Origin: Magnetococcales bacterium
Lineage (GTDB): Bacteria; Pseudomonadota; Magnetococcia; Magnetococcales; Magnetaquicoccaceae
Reading direction: 5' to 3'
NCBI GenBank assembly: GCA_015231755.1
Contig: JADGAZ010000005.1
Location: 124,001 to 188,000, forward strand
Length of the DNA: 64,000 bases
In this document: piece after piece, positions 17,474-49,201 of the stretch
Numbering within the stretch: position 1 is the first letter of the stretch
How the letters are laid out: each line of letters opens with the position of its first letter
Made by a program: the position numbers and the translations under genes
Notes under the pieces: generated by a model
The model's input: the letters and a program-made list of their open reading frames with translations, nothing else
What the model was told of the DNA's origin: nothing
Database searches by the model: none

Positions 17474-18034
17474 ATGGCCGTGTTCAATCTACTCGTGACA
17501 GGGGATCGGATCATGGATGGCGCTGGCAAGAAGCTACAGGAGAAGGATGTTTTTGAAAATACGGTGGCAGTGGTCCGGGAGCTGTATGGCAAGGAGACCT
17601 TCTGTAATCGTATCAAGGCCGAACAGATCGTCATCGATATCGACGTGGAACAAGGCTGCACCAAGAGCGTGATGCTGGAGTATGGCAAATTCGTCGTCTC
17701 CAGGGACTCCAAGGATGTGAATGGGAATTACGTCAAACACGACATCCTCAAGGATCCCCAATCGTTTGAACAGTTCGTGTTCGTGGAGAAATTCTACGAG
17801 TACATGGACTGCAAAATCAATGACCTGACCGAATACGAAATCTCTCTCCGCGAATACGAAAGCCTGCTCAAGTTCTCTCAGATCACCGCCAATCTCAACT
17901 ACAAAATGTTTCCGGCCTTGATGGAGTTCTTCAAGAAGGATTGCCTGAACACCTTCCGCTCGGTCCTGAACAAAGAACAGGCCAAAATCCTGAACATGCG
18001 CCTGGGGGAACTGTTGATGGAGTATCAGCCCTGA
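17474..18034 (+). CDS. Uncharacterised 186-aa protein
   Basis: I do not recognise this protein. The first ATG gives 186 aa. A second ATG at 17513 (MDGAGKK, after AGGGG) gives 173 aa and is an equally plausible start. The sequence is soluble, rich in Lys/Glu/Phe/Tyr, with no signal peptide or membrane helix. The first half looks mixed alpha/beta (IKAEQIVIDIDVEQG). The second half is helical, from VFVEKFYEYMDCKI to LNMRLGELLMEY. It lies between plsC and the rubredoxin gene on the same strand with gaps of 83 and 222 bp, so it may be monocistronic. Codon use resembles the host genes, so it does not look recently acquired. Confidence 0.75.
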   Translation: MAVFNLLVTGDRIMDGAGKKLQEKDVFENTVAVVRELYGKETFCNRIKAEQIVIDIDVEQGCTKSVMLEYGKFVVSRDSKDVNGNYVKHDILKDPQSFEQFVFVEKFYEYMDCKINDLTEYEISLREYESLLKFSQITANLNYKMFPALMEFFKKDCLNTFRSVLNKEQAKILNMRLGELLMEYQP

Positions 18035-21033: not shown

Positions 21034-22239
21034 ATGTCTGTTTTATCGCAACGCATCCAGAACGTAAAGCCCTCGCCAACCCTGATGATCACAGCCAAGG
21101 CCAAGGCCCTCCAGGCCCAAGGCAAGGATGTGATCGGACTTGGCTCCGGAGAGCCCGATTTCGACACCCCGGAACACATCAAAAAGGCGGCCATCCGCGC
21201 CCTGCGGGAAGGATTCACCAAGTATACCGCCGTCGAAGGCATCGATGAACTGCAACGCGCCATCATTCATCGTTACGTCGAAGACCACAACATGGCCTTC
21301 ACCCCGGATCAGGTGGTGGTGACCGTGGGTGGCAAACAGGCCTTTTTCAACCTGATCCAGGCTACCATCAATCCCGGCGACGAGGTGATCATCCCCGCGC
21401 CTTATTGGGTCTCTTATCCGGATATGGTGCTGCTGGCCGATGGCGTGCCCGTGGTCGTGGCCACCCAGGAGGCCAACGGCTTCAAGATGACCCCGGAAGA
21501 GTTGGAAGCCGCCATCACCGCCAAGACCCGTTTTCTGGTGATCAACTCCCCCTCCAATCCCACCGGTTCGGCCTACACCGCCGAAGAGTTGATCGCCCTG
21601 GGGGCGGTGCTGGAGCGTCATCCCCACGTGTGGGTGATCAGCGACGACATCTATGAAAAGATCATCTACAAGCCATTCCGCTTCGCCACCTTGAGCGCCG
21701 TGGTTCCCGCCTTGCAGAATCGTACCGTGATCGTGAGCGGGGTTTCCAAAGCCTACTCCATGACCGGTTGGCGCATCGGTTATGCGGTCGGGCCCAAGGA
21801 GATCATCAAGGCCATGACCAAAATGCAGTCGCAAAGCACCTCCAACGCCACCTCCATCGCCCAGAAAGCGGCGGCGGTGGCCCTGGCCGGGTCGCAAAAG
21901 TGCATCAAACCCATGGTCAAGGCCTTCCGCGAGCGGCGGGATTTTGTGGTCGATGCCCTCAACGCCATGCCCGGCATCACCTGTCGTTCCCCGGAAGGGG
22001 CGTTTTACGTCTTCCCCAACGTGGCGGGCTTGATGAACACCACCGCCGCCAACGGCACCCGCATCACCGATACCCTGGAGTTCTCCGCCTATCTGCTGGA
22101 GGCCGTGGGCGTGGCCGTGGTTCCGGGTTCGGCCTTCGGCCTGGATCCTTATTTCCGCATCTCCTTCGCCACGTCGATGCAGGATCTGGAACAGGCCATG
22201 ATCCGCATCCGCAAGGTGGCCGAAGAGTTGACGCGGTGA
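21034..22239 (+). CDS. aspC: Pyridoxal-phosphate aspartate aminotransferase (class I, subgroup gamma)
   Basis: This cytoplasmic PLP enzyme transfers the amino group between aspartate and 2-oxoglutarate; some members also use prephenate. The product has 401 aa from the ATG at 21034, which begins MSVLSQRIQNVKPS as in this family. The open frame extends 31 codons upstream, but that part lies in the divergent promoter region. Motifs are LGSGEPDFDTPEHI, the NSPSNPTGSAY loop, SDDIYEKI, and the PLP lysine in SGVSKAYSMTGWRIGY. It ends just before a strong hairpin. It is the last host-like gene before the AT-rich segment. Confidence 0.93.
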   Translation: MSVLSQRIQNVKPSPTLMITAKAKALQAQGKDVIGLGSGEPDFDTPEHIKKAAIRALREGFTKYTAVEGIDELQRAIIHRYVEDHNMAFTPDQVVVTVGGKQAFFNLIQATINPGDEVIIPAPYWVSYPDMVLLADGVPVVVATQEANGFKMTPEELEAAITAKTRFLVINSPSNPTGSAYTAEELIALGAVLERHPHVWVISDDIYEKIIYKPFRFATLSAVVPALQNRTVIVSGVSKAYSMTGWRIGYAVGPKEIIKAMTKMQSQSTSNATSIAQKAAAVALAGSQKCIKPMVKAFRERRDFVVDALNAMPGITCRSPEGAFYVFPNVAGLMNTTAANGTRITDTLEFSAYLLEAVGVAVVPGSAFGLDPYFRISFATSMQDLEQAMIRIRKVAEELTR

Positions 22240-22258
22240 TGGGATTGGTGTGAGCCTT

Positions 22259-22293
22259 CCGTGCCGGATGGAAAGTTCTTTCATCCGGCACGG
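22259..22293 (+). terminator. Hairpin downstream of aspC
   Basis: An 11-bp perfect stem (22259-22269 with 22283-22293, CCGTGCCGGAT and its complement), extended by a few more pairs, lies 20 bases after the aspC stop. The following bases are only moderately T-rich (ATTGGTTACAATGATTTT), so this is a hairpin with weak intrinsic terminator character. It also marks the boundary to the AT-rich segment. Confidence 0.55.
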
Positions 22294-22298
22294 ATTGG

Positions 22299-23114
22299 TT
22301 ACAATGATTTTCTTAGGGAGGCAGACGTATCTTCTAGGCCCGATTGTGAAGCACGGATTGATGAATTTGATTCTGGGAGTTTGAATTCAAAAGAATCAAC
22401 AAAAGTCCCCTTTAATTGTCTTCCGTTGGAAATGCAAGGGGGATATTGGGTCGATTGTTTGTAGAAATTTCTTGTGTTTGTGATGCGATAGGGTCTGTGA
22501 CACTCTTGATGGTAAATGCGTTTATCGTGCCCATCTAAAATCTTGTTATCCATGTTGATGGAAAGAAAATGATTCCTTGTTGCAATGTTTTCTGTGCTGG
22601 TCATTTTTACCCCTTTCTGGTGTTCTACGTAATTGGTTAAATCTTTAGATCCTGAAGGGGCAGTAGTGGCAATAGGCGAGAAATATATTCTACCTACTTT
22701 AAACTTTTTGAAATATTTGTTTCTGATTGTTTTGTTCTCAGAAGGGTTGCATAGTATTTTATTGTCAGGGCAATCTTTGCGAATGCAAGGGTTCCCATGG
22801 CAGCAAGAGCATGACATATTGTTCTCAACAACGAGAACAATAAAATCTCTTACCTTTTTTTCTAATATAATTAGAAATATATTTTCTGTCTCAATAATAC
22901 AGAGTATTCTTTTGGAATTATAGTAGTTTGCTTCTTTGATTTTTTTAAGAACTGTTTCTGTGCCTGATTTGAAAGATGATTTCATATCTTTTCCGTTTTC
23001 TAAGGATCTGAATTGCATTGTTGCGTTGACTGGGTCAAGATTTAACAGATCCGATGGCGACTTGCCATCGGATCTTGCGTTTTGAATCTTAGCTTTCTCC
23101 CGTTTTTTGATCAA
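22299..23114 (-). CDS. Unknown AT-rich cassette protein 2 (cysteine cluster)
   Basis: I do not recognise this protein. The frame starts at a TTG (23114) that overlaps the stop of the upstream gene as TTGA and gives 271 aa. No Shine-Dalgarno is seen. An ATG at 23018 would give 239 aa and would place the 23047-23075 hairpin outside the coding part. A short hydrophobic stretch (about 70-97, RILCIIETENIF, LVVENN) is followed by a dense cysteine cluster at residues 102, 104, 105, 110, 115 and 122, and later by HQECHRPY. Metal binding is possible. GC content is far below the neighbours, and the base composition matches the partner gene. Function unknown; transfer is likely. Confidence 0.6.
   Translation of the reverse strand: MIKKREKAKIQNARSDGKSPSDLLNLDPVNATMQFRSLENGKDMKSSFKSGTETVLKKIKEANYYNSKRILCIIETENIFLIILEKKVRDFIVLVVENNMSCSCCHGNPCIRKDCPDNKILCNPSENKTIRNKYFKKFKVGRIYFSPIATTAPSGSKDLTNYVEHQKGVKMTSTENIATRNHFLSINMDNKILDGHDKRIYHQECHRPYRITNTRNFYKQSTQYPPCISNGRQLKGTFVDSFEFKLPESNSSIRASQSGLEDTSASLRKSL
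23047..23075 (-). promoter_or_regulatory. Strong hairpin at the junction of the two cassette genes
   Basis: A perfect 12-bp inverted repeat (AGATCCGATGGC at 23047-23058, complement at 23064-23075) with a 5-base loop stands out as GC-rich in an AT-rich background. On the minus strand it begins about 36 bases after the stop of the first gene. No T run follows, so it is not a classic terminator. It could be an RNA processing or attenuation element controlling the second gene. Confidence 0.6.
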
Positions 23115-24382
23115 ATATATTTTTCGTGTTGGGATGTGACTCCAATGCTTCCAAGGAGTTCTGGGAAAATTTTGATATCCTTATATTTGTAGAGGTGTTT
23201 TTTTCTTTGGGCGTGTGTTTTTTTTGTTTTCTTGCTGTCTGGAACGATGCTAAAATATTCCATAGTTTTTCTGGCAGGAATAAGGCTACCTATTGTAAAC
23301 GCCAATGTCTTATAGGGTTTTTTGCTGTTTGTGGTGCTGAGAGAGTTGGGTGATATTGATATCTTAAGGTCTAGAGGAAGGTATCCTTGTCGGAGTGTTG
23401 GGGTAATATTTTGAAAATCTTTCATGATCTGATCTGCTATACCAAGATTTTTTGAAGCCTCTTGATTGGTTCGTTTCGCGCGTAGATGATTTTTTGAGTA
23501 TTCTTTTATCATTTTTTTTATAAAGGCTTTTCCCTCGGATTGTGATGTGGGAAGCTCCTGGTCTTTTAAAATTCCCTTCCAGGCGTCACTCTTCTTCATC
23601 AATTCAAAGATTATATGCATGTGCTCTAGTCCGTATGGTTGATTCATCAGTTCCGTGATGGGTGCTGAAGAGTATTCCTTTTGGAAGCCAGGGAATTGGG
23701 TTTCAGGAGAACAGCAGAACGTGTGAACTTTGATTGTATGGACTGACTCGAACTCGTATGTTTTGTCTTCAATGTTGCGAGTCTTGAAACATGACTGGAT
23801 TGCTTCTTTAACATTTTTTTCAATTGATTTGCAAATTGTTCCAAGTGTGTTTGAACAACTAGCAACAATTGCTGATATATTCTTTCTTGTATTAGAAATT
23901 CTTTCTGTTGTTGATTGTGGCCACAAAGGAATTTCGGTCCATATTCTTATTTTGTTATATTCGTATTCGTTGCCAAAGTACCATTGTAATCCAAAATACA
24001 CCTCCATATCTGGGAAAATGTCGACTAATTTAACATTATAGCATAACTTTTTTAAAGTGGTCCATCCAGTATTTTTTGCTATTTTTTCTTCCCCGATTTC
24101 ATTAAAAAGACTACCTGTTTCCTCGAACGGATAGGTTTTGCACTTGGCGACACTTAATGCTTGGCTGATGCAGTTGTTGAAAACTTCTGTATTGACGGTC
24201 TTGATGATCGTATTAGATAATTGAATCAGAGCTGGATCGGTTTCGTAATTCCAGTTTTCTTTTTCGGGACTGGGGGGTATAAGATTTTCTCTCAGTTTCT
24301 GCAGAGTGTCTCTATTGAAAGGGCTGTATAAAGATGTTTCGCAAGAAGAGAAACCTATATATTGCGGAGCTTTCATGTCCAT
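23111..24382 (-). CDS. Unknown AT-rich cassette protein 1
   Basis: I do not recognise this protein. The ATG at 24382 (MDMKAPQYIG) has AAAGGAAC at good spacing and gives 423 aa. The frame stays open to 24682, but the upstream part lies in GC-rich DNA of different origin and was excluded. No signal peptide or membrane helix is visible. It contains scattered Cys and His (FSSCETSLY, HTFCCSPETQFPG, YGLEHMHIIFELMKK) and a basic C-terminal third (KKTKKTHAQRKKHLYKYKD). The basic tail could suit nucleic-acid binding, but that is a guess. GC content near 35-40% and AT-biased codons contrast with the about 60% flanks. It overlaps the next gene as TTGA and forms a two-gene unit. Confidence 0.75.
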   Translation of the reverse strand: MDMKAPQYIGFSSCETSLYSPFNRDTLQKLRENLIPPSPEKENWNYETDPALIQLSNTIIKTVNTEVFNNCISQALSVAKCKTYPFEETGSLFNEIGEEKIAKNTGWTTLKKLCYNVKLVDIFPDMEVYFGLQWYFGNEYEYNKIRIWTEIPLWPQSTTERISNTRKNISAIVASCSNTLGTICKSIEKNVKEAIQSCFKTRNIEDKTYEFESVHTIKVHTFCCSPETQFPGFQKEYSSAPITELMNQPYGLEHMHIIFELMKKSDAWKGILKDQELPTSQSEGKAFIKKMIKEYSKNHLRAKRTNQEASKNLGIADQIMKDFQNITPTLRQGYLPLDLKISISPNSLSTTNSKKPYKTLAFTIGSLIPARKTMEYFSIVPDSKKTKKTHAQRKKHLYKYKDIKIFPELLGSIGVTSQHEKYI

Positions 24383-24427
24383 GTCGAAGTTCCTTTGGAA
24401 GGATGAGTTGAATAGAAAGAGGTATAA

Positions 24428-24706
24428 TTGAAGATTGGTGGGCGACTGTCCAGTCGGTCGAGAGGGTGGGCGGTTGCGGGGCATCCACGTGATATCGCCA
24501 CGGCTTACAGTCGGGTGTGGGCAGAGAGCGAAGACGCCATCCGATCCGGGATTAAATCGACCAATGTGGAGTGCAAGACGGTTCACGGCCTGAGCAAAGT
24601 TTGGACACGAGGATTGGCTCGTATCACCTTTGCGGTAAAAATGAAGGCCATGGCCTACAATAATGTAAAACTGTTTATGCATTATAGTTGCGCCAATTGC
24701 CTATAA
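24428..24706 (+). pseudogene. Probable 3' remnant of a DDE transposase
   Basis: About 70 codons on the plus strand read as the C-terminal end of an IS-type transposase. The pattern is Glu (NVECKTVHGL), then a short gap, TRGLARITF, and MKAMAYNNVKLF. Many DDE transposases end in this way: catalytic Glu, HGL, R.RGL, then an A..N..KL helix. There is no proper start; a stop lies at 24425 just before the frame. The rest of the gene is absent. GC content is higher than in the two cassette genes beside it, so it has a separate origin. No terminal inverted repeats were found. Family assignment is uncertain. Confidence 0.4.
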
Positions 24707-25459
24707 AAATAAGGAGAAAATGCTGAAGATTGCAGCATAAAGGGGAGGAGATCCCCGCATCTGGAGGCCTAAACTGGCCCTTTTGACCCCAAAACGCAAC
24801 GCCAAGCCGAACAGTTCGGTCAACAGCGGCGTTTTATGAGGCAAGCGAGAAAACTTAGAGAGGAGGCGGGATGGAGATCCGGACCGGATAGGTGGGATAG
24901 CGAATCCGCCAGAGGTCGGGGACCGACATGACTGGAGCGGTGCTTTGAAGTCCGGTGACCATGCGCTTTACGGCAGGGTGTCCAGACTTGAGCCAGAGTG
25001 TGTTTCTGATTGGTTGCATGGTTCCAGCCCCTCTTTCTGGAAAGCAGTCAACACCAACCATCTTGAAGCTTTTCATAAGATCTATATCGCCTGAATGATG
25101 CGGATTTCTTGTGATGATTTGATTTTTTTGTTCTGTTTATAACGAGCAACTCAATGAAAATAAACAATTCTTGCTTCCTTTTGCGTTATTACAATATAAC
25201 AAAAAAAACAAAAAAATAACAATTATCCATTATTTCCAATTCTGTTAGTATAGCAGAGTCCTCTTCTGAATTGCAACCCTAAGTAACATCATTGTGTGAT
25301 TTTTTTTCTGTAAAAATGTTCAAATAGAACAGGTTGATAGACTGGATGACGCAAGTTGCGTCAGATGTCGGCTGCTGTTTTGGGCGCGCGCAGGGGTGAT
25401 CAGTGTGGGGGATGAGCCGGTGGAACTATATTATGAACGCACGCGAAACGCGCGCGCGA
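24707..25459. other. Long intergenic stretch, AT-rich in its second half, with a palindrome
   Basis: No convincing gene lies in these 750 bases. A 73-codon minus frame (24855-25076) has no recognisable features. From about 25080 to 25340 the DNA is very AT-rich, with A-tracts (25198-25218). A perfect 8-bp inverted repeat with one central base (TGACGCAA-G-TTGCGTCA, 25347-25363) looks like a regulator operator but no gene start is next to it. A short GC hairpin at 25438-25456 lies just after the last gene of the glycosylation operon. Confidence 0.6.
25438..25456 (-). terminator. Possible terminator of the glycosylation operon
   Basis: An 8-bp CG-rich stem with a 3-base loop (25438-25445 with 25449-25456, one G-T pair) begins 4 bases after the stop of the last operon gene. 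On the minus strand it is followed by TTCATAATATAGTT, AT-rich but without a T run, so terminator activity is only possible. Confidence 0.4.
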
Positions 25460-44124: not shown

Positions 44125-44996
44125 ACGGTTCCTCTGGAGGCCATGGGGTTGCGGTTCCGGCGGCCAAAAAACGGCTTGGACAACATTTTCTTGCCGATTC
44201 CGAGGTGGCCCGGGAGATTGTCCGGGCCTCTGGAGTGGGACCGGGGGATCGGGTGGTGGAGATCGGTCCCGGACCGGGTGCCTTGACCGTTTGGCTGCTG
44301 CGGGCTGCCGGACGGGTGTGGGCCATCGAGCTGGATGCGGAGTTGTTGCCGGTTTTGATGCAGCGCACCGCCGGTCTGGGGGAGCTGCACGTGGAGAGGA
44401 CCGACGCCTTGCGGGTGGACTATGGGGCGTTGGCGGAAACCCTGGGCGGGGAGCTGCGCATCGTGGCCAATCTGCCCTATAATATCAGCACCCCTTTGCT
44501 GATGCGTTTCATCGATCAGCGGGCGGCCATCGTCCAGATGACCCTGATGGTGCAAACCGAAGTGGCGGAACGGCTCTACGCCCGGCCCGGCACCAAGGCC
44601 TATGGGGCCTTGTCGGTGCCCTGCGGCTTGTGGATGGAGATCGAACCGGTGCTGCATGTGCCTCCCGGCGCGTTTCGTCCGCCCCCCAAGGTCAACTCCA
44701 CCGTGGTGCGACTGACCCGGCGGGCCGCTCCCCTGGCCCGGGTGGATGACCCCGGAATTTTCTCCCAGGTGGTGCGGGCCGCGTTTGGTCAACGCCGCAA
44801 GGTGCTGGCCAACGCCCTGCGGGTGATGGGGGATCCGGCCCGCCAGTGGCTGGAACGGGCGGAAATCGATCCGGAACGCCGGGGCGAGACCCTTTCGATT
44901 CCGGAGTTCGCCCGACTGGCCAATGTGATTCACGCCTCAGGGGGGAGCGACTCCCCGGATCACTCTCCCACCATCATGAACGCCGACCAGATATAG
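44121..44996 (+). CDS. rsmA: 16S rRNA (adenine1518-N6/adenine1519-N6)-dimethyltransferase
   Basis: RsmA (KsgA) dimethylates two adjacent adenines near the 3' end of 16S rRNA during small-subunit maturation. The product has 291 aa. It shows KKRLGQHFLADSEVA, the SAM motif VVEIGPGPGALT, the acidic motif IELDAEL, the NLPYNIST catalytic motif, and FRPPPKVNSTVVRL. A C-terminal extension of about 25 residues overlaps the convergent TPR-CHAT gene by 37 bp. It follows a hybrid kinase gene by ATGA overlap. Confidence 0.96.
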   Translation: MNGSSGGHGVAVPAAKKRLGQHFLADSEVAREIVRASGVGPGDRVVEIGPGPGALTVWLLRAAGRVWAIELDAELLPVLMQRTAGLGELHVERTDALRVDYGALAETLGGELRIVANLPYNISTPLLMRFIDQRAAIVQMTLMVQTEVAERLYARPGTKAYGALSVPCGLWMEIEPVLHVPPGAFRPPPKVNSTVVRLTRRAAPLARVDDPGIFSQVVRAAFGQRRKVLANALRVMGDPARQWLERAEIDPERRGETLSIPEFARLANVIHASGGSDSPDHSPTIMNADQI

Positions 44997-47900
44997 GGGT
45001 GTTTCCACTCGCTGGACTCCAGCAGATCCAGTTGGGACTCCCGCAAGGCCCGATGGGCGCTCATCCCTTCTCCGAGACGGGCGTAGAGATTGGTCATAAG
45101 TGCCTGAGTGCCCGCGTCGCTCACCTCCCACAACGAGGCGATGACCGATTTGGCTCCCGCCTCCTGGAAGGCCCGACGCAAACCGTAGACCCCTTCGCCT
45201 TCGTGCATCTCCCCGAGTCCGGTTTCGCAGGCCGACAGCACCGCCAGTCGTGTGCCGGTCAGATCCATGCCCAGCACCTCCAGGGCGGTGAGTACCCCAT
45301 CGTTGTCCGTGTCCAGTTCTCCGAGGAAGCGGGCGTTGGCGTTGATGCCGGCAAAGGCCAGACCGGCCCGCAACAACGGATTGTCTCCGGGAGGGGGAAG
45401 CTTCAACTCGCCACCACGGGCCAGTTTCAGGAGTCGTTTCTTGAGGTTGTCGTCGGGTTTGAGGAAAAAGCCGTGGGTGGCGATGTGCAGAATCTCCGGT
45501 GGCGTCGCGAGCGATTGCAACGCCGACTCCTGGGCTTCGTGTTTCATCAGCACGGTGTTGTTTTTTTTGCGGCCCGTGGCCTGTCCGGAGATCAGCCGCC
45601 CCTCTTTTTCCGCGCCGGGCAGCGGATCGAAATGCAGTCCCCGCATGCCCGACGAGAAGGCCCGCAATCCCTGCTTGAGTTCGGATGAGCGTCTCCCCTG
45701 GAGGGATTCCGACTCCTTTTCCTTTGCTTTCAGCTTTTTGGCCTGGTCTCCTCCCACCTTGTCGGAGTCGTAATCCGGACCGGCCAGGATCAGGTAGTTG
45801 CCTTTGGCTTCGGGCACAGCGGAAGGGACCAGATCCCGGCTCGACGACAGCAGATGCAGATCCGTATCCCGGGCCAGATAGTCATCCTCCGGATTCACCA
45901 GGGCCGGGAAGGGGAGGATGTTGAGCATGCCGTCCGGAACCACATACACCTGTTCCCGTTTGCCGATACGCTGCTTGATGGGTGCCCAGATCCGGTCATA
46001 GGCGGTGCGGCCCATTTTTTTGATGCTCTCTTCGTCCGCCTCTTCCTCCTGGATGATGGCCCGATAGTCGGTGACGATTTTTTGCACCCCGTCCGGATCC
46101 GGATAGACCACCCGGTCGAACACCACCTTGCCCTTGTCCTGGAACACAATGGCCGCCTGCAATCCGCTGCGTTCTTCATCCTTGTAGGCCAGGAATTCCA
46201 CCAGGGCGGCCTTTTCCGGCAGATGTTTCACCAGGGTGTCGAGGGTGATGGGCGTGGTGGTGTGTTGCAGTCGTTTGCTGGCCCGTCCCAGTTCCAGTTG
46301 CAGCCGTTCCACGTCGTTTTCCAGATCGTGGATCACCTTCAAATGGGTGCTGGCGGTCTCCGGGGTGGGGCCGGAGAGGGTCAACGAGGCCAGCCGTTTG
46401 CGGGTTTCCGTCAACCGTTCGCTGATCGCCTTGAGCGCCGGATCGTTCCCCAGTCGGGCAATCTGCCGGATCTCCGAGGTGATCTTGAGCAGCAATCCCT
46501 TGCGTCGCAAACCCACCTCGAACGCCTCGCGCCCTCCGGTGGCCGGATCCATCTCCCCCAGCCGGGTCAGGTAGGTGTTGAGTTCCGGGGCATGCAGCCG
46601 GATGTATCCCTCCCGGGCGTTGTCCCCGGTGGACCAGAGCATGCGATCCAGAAAATCCGAACGGCGGATGAACAGTTCCTTGCGTACCTTGAACGCATCC
46701 GGGTGTTTGGTCTTCTCCAGGATCGAGGCCAGGGTTTCCAAGACCTCGAAGGCGTAGGGATGCAAGGGTCCGACCGCCTCTTCGGCCTTGGCGCGGGCCT
46801 GGCGGGCCAGCTCTTCCGCCTCTTTGTGGCGTCCCATGTCCCGCAGCAGCAGGCTCAAGTCGTTCATGGAGCGGATCACATCCGGATGGCGCTCTCCGAG
46901 GGTTTTCCGGCGTCCTTCCAGGGCTTTGGTGAAGAGTTTTTCCGCCTCCTGATGCTGTCCCAGATGATGGGTGACCCGGGCCAGATTGTTCAGGGCCTTC
47001 AGGGTGCGGGGATGACGTCCCCCCAGCGTGGCGCTCCAGCTTTCCAGTGCTTGACGGAACAAGGGTGCGGCCTTGGCTTCTTCTCGTTGCAGCAGATGCA
47101 GATAGGCCAGATTGTTGATCACCGCCACCGTGTCCACATGCCGCTCCCCGAGCCGTTTGCGATAGGCGTCGATGGCGTTGTGATACAGGGGTTCGGCCTT
47201 GTCGAAGTTGCCTTGGCTTTCGTGCAGCAAGGCGAGATTGTTCATGGTGGTCAGGGTGATGGGGCGTTCGGGACCGAATTGTTTTTGAGCCAGTTCGAGA
47301 GCCCGTCGCAACACCGGTTCCGCGTCGTCGTAGAGTCCCGCCTGTTCCAGCAGTTGCCCCAGATTGTTGAGGGTGGTGATGGTGACCGGATGGGATTCCC
47401 CCAGGGTCTTGGTGAGGGATTCCAGGGTCGTCTTGAGCAGGGTTTCCGCGGCGGCCAGATCTCCTCTTTTTTCGAGGATGGTGGCCAGCTCCACACGCAA
47501 GGCCAGGGTCGAGGGGTGTTCCTCTCCCTGTTCGGCGGCGAGTTCTTTCAGGAGTTTGCGGGTCTGGTTTTCCGCCTCCTGGAAATCGCTCTGGTCTGCC
47601 AGCAGATGAATCCGGGCCGTGGTGGCTTCGACGGTCAACGGATCCTTGGTGCCGGCGGGCAGCCGGGCCAGAACCGGCTTGAGGAGCGCTTCGGCCCGTT
47701 TGAGTTCTCCCAGACGACGGTTGGCCTCGGCGGCTCCGATGCGTGTGGCAAGGGGGGTGGGATCTTCTTTCGGCAGGATGGCTTCCAGAATGGTCAGGCT
47801 TTGTTCGTAGGCGTCCCGGGCCATGGGGAAGGCCTCGCGGGCCATGTTCAGGGCCGCGAACCGTTCCAGACAACGGGCGGTTTCCGGGTGATGATAACCA

Positions 47901-48967
47901 TGGACCCCGGCGGAACGGGAACAGACCTCCCGCAGCATCGTTTCCGCCTCGTCATGGGATCCCAGTTCCTGGAGCAGTCGGGCCAGGGCCAGATCGTTGT
48001 CCATGGCCAGGGGATGCCCGGCTCCGATTTTGGCGGCCCAGCCGCCGCGGGCGGCTTGATACATATCACGGGCGGCGGCGGGATTGTTTTGGGTCTCCAG
48101 GAGTTCCGCCAGGGCCTTGCCGGTGGCGAGGCTTTCCGGATGGTTGGGCCCCAGTGCCTTTTGGGCATGGGTCGCTGCCTGCTTGAGCAAAGGTTCGGCC
48201 TCGGCCACCTTGCCCATCAGGGTCAGATAGGTGCCCAGCTCCCGTTCGCTCATGAAGGTGGAGGCGTGTTGCGCCCCGAGATTCTCCCGGGCCAGATCCG
48301 CTGCCTGTTTTCCCAGGCGGATGGCGGTGTCCAGATCCCCCTTTTCGGCGGCGGCCATGGCCTCTTCCCGGGTCTTGGACCATACCCCCGCCACCTCGGC
48401 CTTGCTGGCTGGAATGACTCCGGCTTGGTTGAGGGTTTCATCCACCCAGGGGGGCATGGTATTGACCATTCGGCTGATTTCCCCGTTGTACATGGCCGCA
48501 TCCTTGGTATCGCCTCCCTTGGCGGCCAGGGTGGCGGCTTTGCGGAAATACTCCAGGGCTTTGGCGGTCTCTCCCGCCTGGAGGCTGGCCGTGGCCGCGT
48601 TGTGCAGCCAGTCCTTGTGCCCCGGATCCCGTTCGTGGGCCTTGGCAAAGCGGGTCATGGCCTGCTGGAAATCGTTGGCCTGCATAGCCTTTTTGCCTGC
48701 TTCCGCCTCTTTGGCCGCCGTGGGGTCGTTTTGGGCTGCCGGAGGCGCGGGGGGTGGCGTCAGCAGTGGGGCGTTGCCGGTGGTTTTTTCAGCGTTTGCC
48801 GGTTTGACGACCGCCCCGGCCCGTTGTTTTTCGTCCGGAGCGCCGGACGCGGCCAGCGCGGTCAGTGGCCAGGAGGATCCCAGCAACAGACCGAGCGCGA
48901 TCACGGATAACGGCTTTATCCGCCGTGGATAGTGGACACGAAAACAATGGGGGCGGGAAAGAGACAT
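44960..48967 (-). CDS. Exported TPR-CHAT protein (caspase-like domain)
   Basis: This 1335-aa protein begins with a signal peptide (ALGLLLGSSWPLTALAAS) and a low-complexity linker. Then come about 800 residues of tetratricopeptide repeats of the kinesin-light-chain type (for example ITTLNNLGQLLEQAGLYDDAEPVL, ALNNLARVTHHLGQHQEAEKLF). The C-terminal CHAT domain (about 985-1335) is a clan CD cysteine-protease fold. Its likely dyad is His in ILHIATHGFF and Cys in VLSACETGLGEM. The final segment, VIASLWEVSDAGTQALMTNLYARL and HPYIWSAFMMVGE, is typical. The ATG at 48967 has GGAGAG upstream; a GTG at 48979 is an alternative. Substrate unknown. It convergently overlaps rsmA. Confidence 0.9.
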   Translation of the reverse strand: MSLSRPHCFRVHYPRRIKPLSVIALGLLLGSSWPLTALAASGAPDEKQRAGAVVKPANAEKTTGNAPLLTPPPAPPAAQNDPTAAKEAEAGKKAMQANDFQQAMTRFAKAHERDPGHKDWLHNAATASLQAGETAKALEYFRKAATLAAKGGDTKDAAMYNGEISRMVNTMPPWVDETLNQAGVIPASKAEVAGVWSKTREEAMAAAEKGDLDTAIRLGKQAADLARENLGAQHASTFMSERELGTYLTLMGKVAEAEPLLKQAATHAQKALGPNHPESLATGKALAELLETQNNPAAARDMYQAARGGWAAKIGAGHPLAMDNDLALARLLQELGSHDEAETMLREVCSRSAGVHGYHHPETARCLERFAALNMAREAFPMARDAYEQSLTILEAILPKEDPTPLATRIGAAEANRRLGELKRAEALLKPVLARLPAGTKDPLTVEATTARIHLLADQSDFQEAENQTRKLLKELAAEQGEEHPSTLALRVELATILEKRGDLAAAETLLKTTLESLTKTLGESHPVTITTLNNLGQLLEQAGLYDDAEPVLRRALELAQKQFGPERPITLTTMNNLALLHESQGNFDKAEPLYHNAIDAYRKRLGERHVDTVAVINNLAYLHLLQREEAKAAPLFRQALESWSATLGGRHPRTLKALNNLARVTHHLGQHQEAEKLFTKALEGRRKTLGERHPDVIRSMNDLSLLLRDMGRHKEAEELARQARAKAEEAVGPLHPYAFEVLETLASILEKTKHPDAFKVRKELFIRRSDFLDRMLWSTGDNAREGYIRLHAPELNTYLTRLGEMDPATGGREAFEVGLRRKGLLLKITSEIRQIARLGNDPALKAISERLTETRKRLASLTLSGPTPETASTHLKVIHDLENDVERLQLELGRASKRLQHTTTPITLDTLVKHLPEKAALVEFLAYKDEERSGLQAAIVFQDKGKVVFDRVVYPDPDGVQKIVTDYRAIIQEEEADEESIKKMGRTAYDRIWAPIKQRIGKREQVYVVPDGMLNILPFPALVNPEDDYLARDTDLHLLSSSRDLVPSAVPEAKGNYLILAGPDYDSDKVGGDQAKKLKAKEKESESLQGRRSSELKQGLRAFSSGMRGLHFDPLPGAEKEGRLISGQATGRKKNNTVLMKHEAQESALQSLATPPEILHIATHGFFLKPDDNLKKRLLKLARGGELKLPPPGDNPLLRAGLAFAGINANARFLGELDTDNDGVLTALEVLGMDLTGTRLAVLSACETGLGEMHEGEGVYGLRRAFQEAGAKSVIASLWEVSDAGTQALMTNLYARLGEGMSAHRALRESQLDLLESSEWKHPYIWSAFMMVGE

Positions 48968-49201
48968 GGGACTCTCCACGGGATGGGTTTTCAGGGGGCC
49001 ATGGAGGGCATGCTAACCGATTTTGAGGCGGGTTTCATGGCAATTCCGGCCAGGGGGTGTTTTTTGGTGGGGGTGGGGCGTGTTGGATGGGGGCAAGCGA
49101 GGATAATTTAAAGATTGAAAGGGGGTGCGGAAGTTTCTGCCCAATCTACCCGTCGCCCCGTACCACGCCGGTGACACGGGGCGGGGAGAGGAGGGGACTT
49201 C

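Follow-up and report, generated by a model that had tools for sequence, protein, structure and literature searches.

What are the two AT-rich open frames that lie on the minus strand between an aminotransferase gene and a surface-glycosylation operon in a Magnetococcales bacterium (family Magnetaquicoccaceae; assembly GCA_015231755.1, here G000), and how did they come to be there? We examined them within a 64,000-nucleotide stretch of contig JADGAZ010000005.1 (positions 124,001 to 188,000 of the forward strand), which as a whole is called the window and to which all coordinates refer unless otherwise indicated. An initial annotation, made from this sequence alone, had described the pair as an acquired two-gene accessory module, such as a defence or conflict system.

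An AT-rich segment in a variable slot

Both minus-strand frames are present as first described, with 423 codons for ORF1 and up to 271 for ORF2. Their GC contents are 37.3% and 36.4% respectively, compared to roughly 60% in the surrounding region, and nowhere in the window is GC lower than in the block that they form, most of the rest lying between 0.55 and 0.66 GC. The annotated contrast in composition with the neighbours is therefore borne out, down to an exact recount of 21 G/C in the 60 positions of 23221–23280.

Comparison with the genome of the closest sister species, G006, delimited the segment to which these frames belong. In blastn, the two loci match with 95.2% DNA identity up to position 22235 and with 91.5% identity from 25460 onwards, with no match between, and the junction sequences place the segment missing from G006 at 22236–25459. 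Thus, the same two flanking genes are separated by 86 bases in G006 versus 3,224 in G000, where the insert includes both ORFs as well as a broken insertion sequence (IS) end. The flanking genes, one for an aspartate-type aminotransferase and the other for the sugar nucleotidyltransferase that ends a surface/flagellin glycosylation operon, recur as a pair within the genus, with 160 bases between them in G010 and 55 in G004. In G005, the slot is 1.4 kb long and is taken up by another, unlike AT-rich gene, encoding a 362-aa multi-pass membrane protein without a Pfam match (L076, 560–1648), and comparison of ORF1, ORF2 and this gene with one another revealed no significant similarity. About 10 kb of other genes occupy the slot in G008, where a DUF4351 gene (L057, 1484–1879) follows the aminotransferase gene; in G002, the latter is followed by a PDDEXK_2 gene (PD-(D/E)XK nuclease family transposase; L060, 1356–2324). 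Because the neighbourhood is rearranged in G008, G002 and G001, we treat these three as weaker examples of the same slot. Being near-empty in G006, G010 and G004 and filled with other DNA in G005 and G008, the slot is variable. The G005 membrane protein has a distant relative in G021 (43% over 164 aa).

A tree built from both flanking proteins groups G000 with G006 as sisters (support 100/99), and this grouping, together with the near-empty site in G006, is most simply explained by one gain in G000. The opposite, a loss from G006, is possible, the comparison covering one sister genome.

The transposase-like remnant that had been noted beside the pair could be identified as the 5′-truncated and degenerate C-terminal end of an IS1182/IS5-type transposase, on the plus strand at 24440–24747. 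Copies in G006, G028, G027 and G002 match it in DNA, with similarity running to 24747. At the protein level, it is 56% identical over 78 aa to a 563-aa transposase that is intact in G028 and matches the IS1182 family model NF033551. Whereas the G028 protein covers nearly the full model (with 175 bits, compared to the NCBI cut-off of 270), the remnant aligns with the C-terminal end of the family. Apart from this transposase end, no intact integrase or transposase was found inside the insert, and a search for a target duplication or terminal inverted repeats at the insert ends revealed no shared word longer than 5 bases and no terminal repeat of at least 8 bases. The right side of the insert contains a non-coding stretch of 29% GC (25090–25330), identified by composition, with A/T runs that are inverted relative to each other; we found no role for it.

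Because the search for an integrase, a target duplication and terminal repeats was negative, we infer that the segment may have entered by recombination between the conserved flanking genes, as part of hotspot turnover. Hotspots of horizontal transfer have been described that turn over, often without recognizable mobile elements, with recombination at flanking core genes as the proposed route (PMC5635113), and the slot described here resembles them in being a gap between conserved genes that is empty or differently filled in relatives, with a segment lacking an integrase. It differs in that it was seen in about eight genomes of one genus, whereas that study used statistical enrichment. Taken together, the near-empty sister site, the variability of the slot within the genus and the IS remnant support the annotated acquisition of an accessory module. 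With the sharp contrast in composition and the length of the open frames also in favour, we consider it quite probable that the segment is accessory DNA specific to the strain or species, inserted into a variable slot and acquired most simply after the split from G006. This assessment concerns acquisition and not role.

Coding potential of the two frames

Measured from stop to stop, ORF1 and ORF2 span 529 and 293 codons respectively, and both exceed the longest frame (230 codons) in 1,500 dinucleotide-preserving shuffles. The other five frames over the two spans contain 10–27 stops each (10–19 for ORF2). Codon-position asymmetry is weak in ORF1 (z 3.2) and marginal in ORF2 (z 1.8, p about 0.05), compared to AT-rich control genes with z 7.7 in G005 and z 9.6 and 2.9 for a pair in G004.

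ORF1 (23111–24382, minus strand) encodes a basic orphan protein of 423 aa, rich in K, I, S and T and without a clear transmembrane helix. Its frame is open further back, to 24682, but an AAAGGA, 8 nt upstream, provides the ATG at 24382 with a good ribosome-binding site, and we therefore accepted this codon as the start. We take ORF1 to be a real gene; that its product is a soluble cytosolic protein is a guess. A match to the SAM-II riboswitch inside ORF1 (23798–23850), which at 23.5 bits falls below the cut-off of 44, was treated as chance.

The ORF2 frame is open from a TTG at 23114 to 22299, which gives the maximum of 271 aa, and this TTG had been taken to join the two genes by a TTGA overlap. 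It has no ribosome-binding site; going downstream, a plausible site first appears ahead of the ATG at 22985 (GGAAAAGAT-ATG), 125 bases beyond the ORF1 stop. This gap contains a perfect 12-bp inverted repeat (23047–23075; −26.4 kcal/mol, z −6.7), present as a single copy within the window, which is terminator-like on the plus strand and lacks a good T-run on the minus (gene) strand. Given the better-supported start and the hairpin that follows the ORF1 stop, the TTGA overlap is probably coincidental and not the real junction. From ATG 22985, ORF2 (22299–22985, minus strand) encodes 228 aa, a delimitation based on the frame, the ribosome-binding site and the codon signal. The protein is basic, has no clear transmembrane segment and contains a Cys/His cluster, CSCCHGNPCIRKDCPDNKILC, which might be a zinc-binding site. 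A second predicted hairpin (22249–22303), between the convergent ends of the aminotransferase gene and ORF2, is a probable shared terminator. ORF1 and ORF2 would be carried on one minus-strand transcript, with ORF1 first and well provided for translation initiation and ORF2 after the intergenic hairpin, which may reduce its level. As a guess, the ORF2 product could be a small, possibly zinc-binding partner of ORF1.

ORF2 is probably a gene, and the frame statistics bear directly on an alternative in which ORF1 alone is genuine and the ORF2 frame, in full or in its C-terminal half, stays open downstream of it by chance. The C-terminal half has no codon-position signal (z 0.3, p 0.31), so that it may be no genuine protein, and the marginal asymmetry of ORF2 as a whole, its uncertain start with a hairpin ahead of it and a structure model whose confidence stays close to the floor beyond residue 54 all point the same way. 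A 293-codon frame longer than any in the 1,500 shuffles, with 10–19 stops in each of the other frames, argues against chance, and we judge this alternative unlikely.

Searches for relatives and structure

The initial annotation had assigned no motif to either protein, and our family and PDB searches likewise found nothing convincing. Profiles from Pfam, NCBIfam, PADLOC and PHROGs, searched with ORF1 and ORF2 up to E 10, identified no family; a match to RP165 (E 0.07, 41 residues, 13 bits) was dismissed. A PDB sequence search gave nothing beyond weak matches, to a myosin and to a nanobody. Neither ORF1 nor ORF2 had a relative in 48 genomes of the class and several hundred further Pseudomonadota (some 900 genomes overall, a count in which two of the samples drew largely the same genomes), so that the two-component nature first ascribed to the pair is a putative one. 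Matches in G012 (E 0.003) and G482 (E 0.004) fall in GC-rich off-frame DNA and were rejected because their alignments cross stop codons. Phages, plasmids, viral contigs and GTDB contigs also yielded no relative of either frame, in scans that for viral and GTDB contigs detect close relatives only and could miss distant ones. Thus, neither single, host-like homologues nor a match to a known family, either of which would speak against an acquired module, was found, there being no homologues at all. Elsewhere in the window, a 186-aa protein (17474–18034) has host-like codon use and no Pfam or PADLOC family, and a 1,339-aa TPR-CHAT protein is encoded at 44960–48979, CHAT being a caspase-like protease domain.

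Structure prediction, which had been proposed as a check on the pair, was carried out but proved uninformative: the single-sequence models, built with no relatives as input, have pLDDT values of 38 and 34, which is floor confidence. In the ORF1 model, the elements follow an alpha-beta-beta-beta-alpha-beta order reminiscent of PD-(D/E)XK nucleases, a likeness that we do not claim because the model is untrustworthy and no D...ExK motif was seen. Fold searches with this model returned nothing below E 0.001, with query TM-scores of about 0.1–0.2 to which we attach no meaning.

These searches also bear on whether the segment is cargo from a phage or another mobile element that has degraded, and no longer has a role in the host, its frames being open simply because acquisition was recent. 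A mosaic insert with a broken transposase, and genes that are strain-restricted and weak in codon structure, would fit such an origin. The phage, plasmid and viral-contig searches were empty, however, and ORF1 and ORF2 are free of stops although the adjoining IS is degenerate. We regard this origin as possible, if short of probable.

A possible role in defence

The defence or conflict role first suggested for the pair gained no support, PADLOC, Pfam and PHROGs being negative. Even so, cargo of a defence or conflict kind is our likeliest guess at a role, a tentative one that reflects prior expectation. In its specific form, ORF1 and ORF2 would act together as a module of two genes, either in anti-phage defence or in the manner of a toxin-antitoxin system, and would belong to a family not yet described. 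The layout, with two same-strand AT-rich genes in a variable slot beside an IS remnant, is consistent with this. So is the finding that, in G004, this glycosylation operon carries at its far end AT-rich genes for an AAA_21 ATPase (AriA/AbiLi/HEC-01A-like) and an RloB-like protein (HEC-01B/AbiLii-like), on the minus strand of that locus (L062, 1901–3726), which are likely a defence pair and indicate that defence cargo can reach this neighbourhood. Like ORF1 and ORF2, this AbiL/HEC-01-type pair is an AT-rich two-gene module near the operon, but it belongs to other protein families, the other operon end and another species, the only one with such genes nearby and outside the window, and ORF1 and ORF2 have no PADLOC match. 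With NCBIfam as empty as the other profile sets, and with a hairpin and gap that speak against tight translational coupling, we consider a joint defence module rather unlikely. It is more doubtful still, to the point of being improbable, that the two frames are the first members of two new families forming a new two-gene conflict module in a hotspot beside the glycosylation operon.

Discussion

As a phenomenon, strain-specific cargo in a variable slot is ordinary. If ORF1 or ORF2 turned out to act in defence or conflict, that protein would represent a new family; otherwise, the segment would be one more strain-specific insertion. For this lineage, the analysis shows that the slot next to a surface/flagellin glycosylation operon is variable, and it adds two orphan proteins from what is quite probably a recent acquisition.
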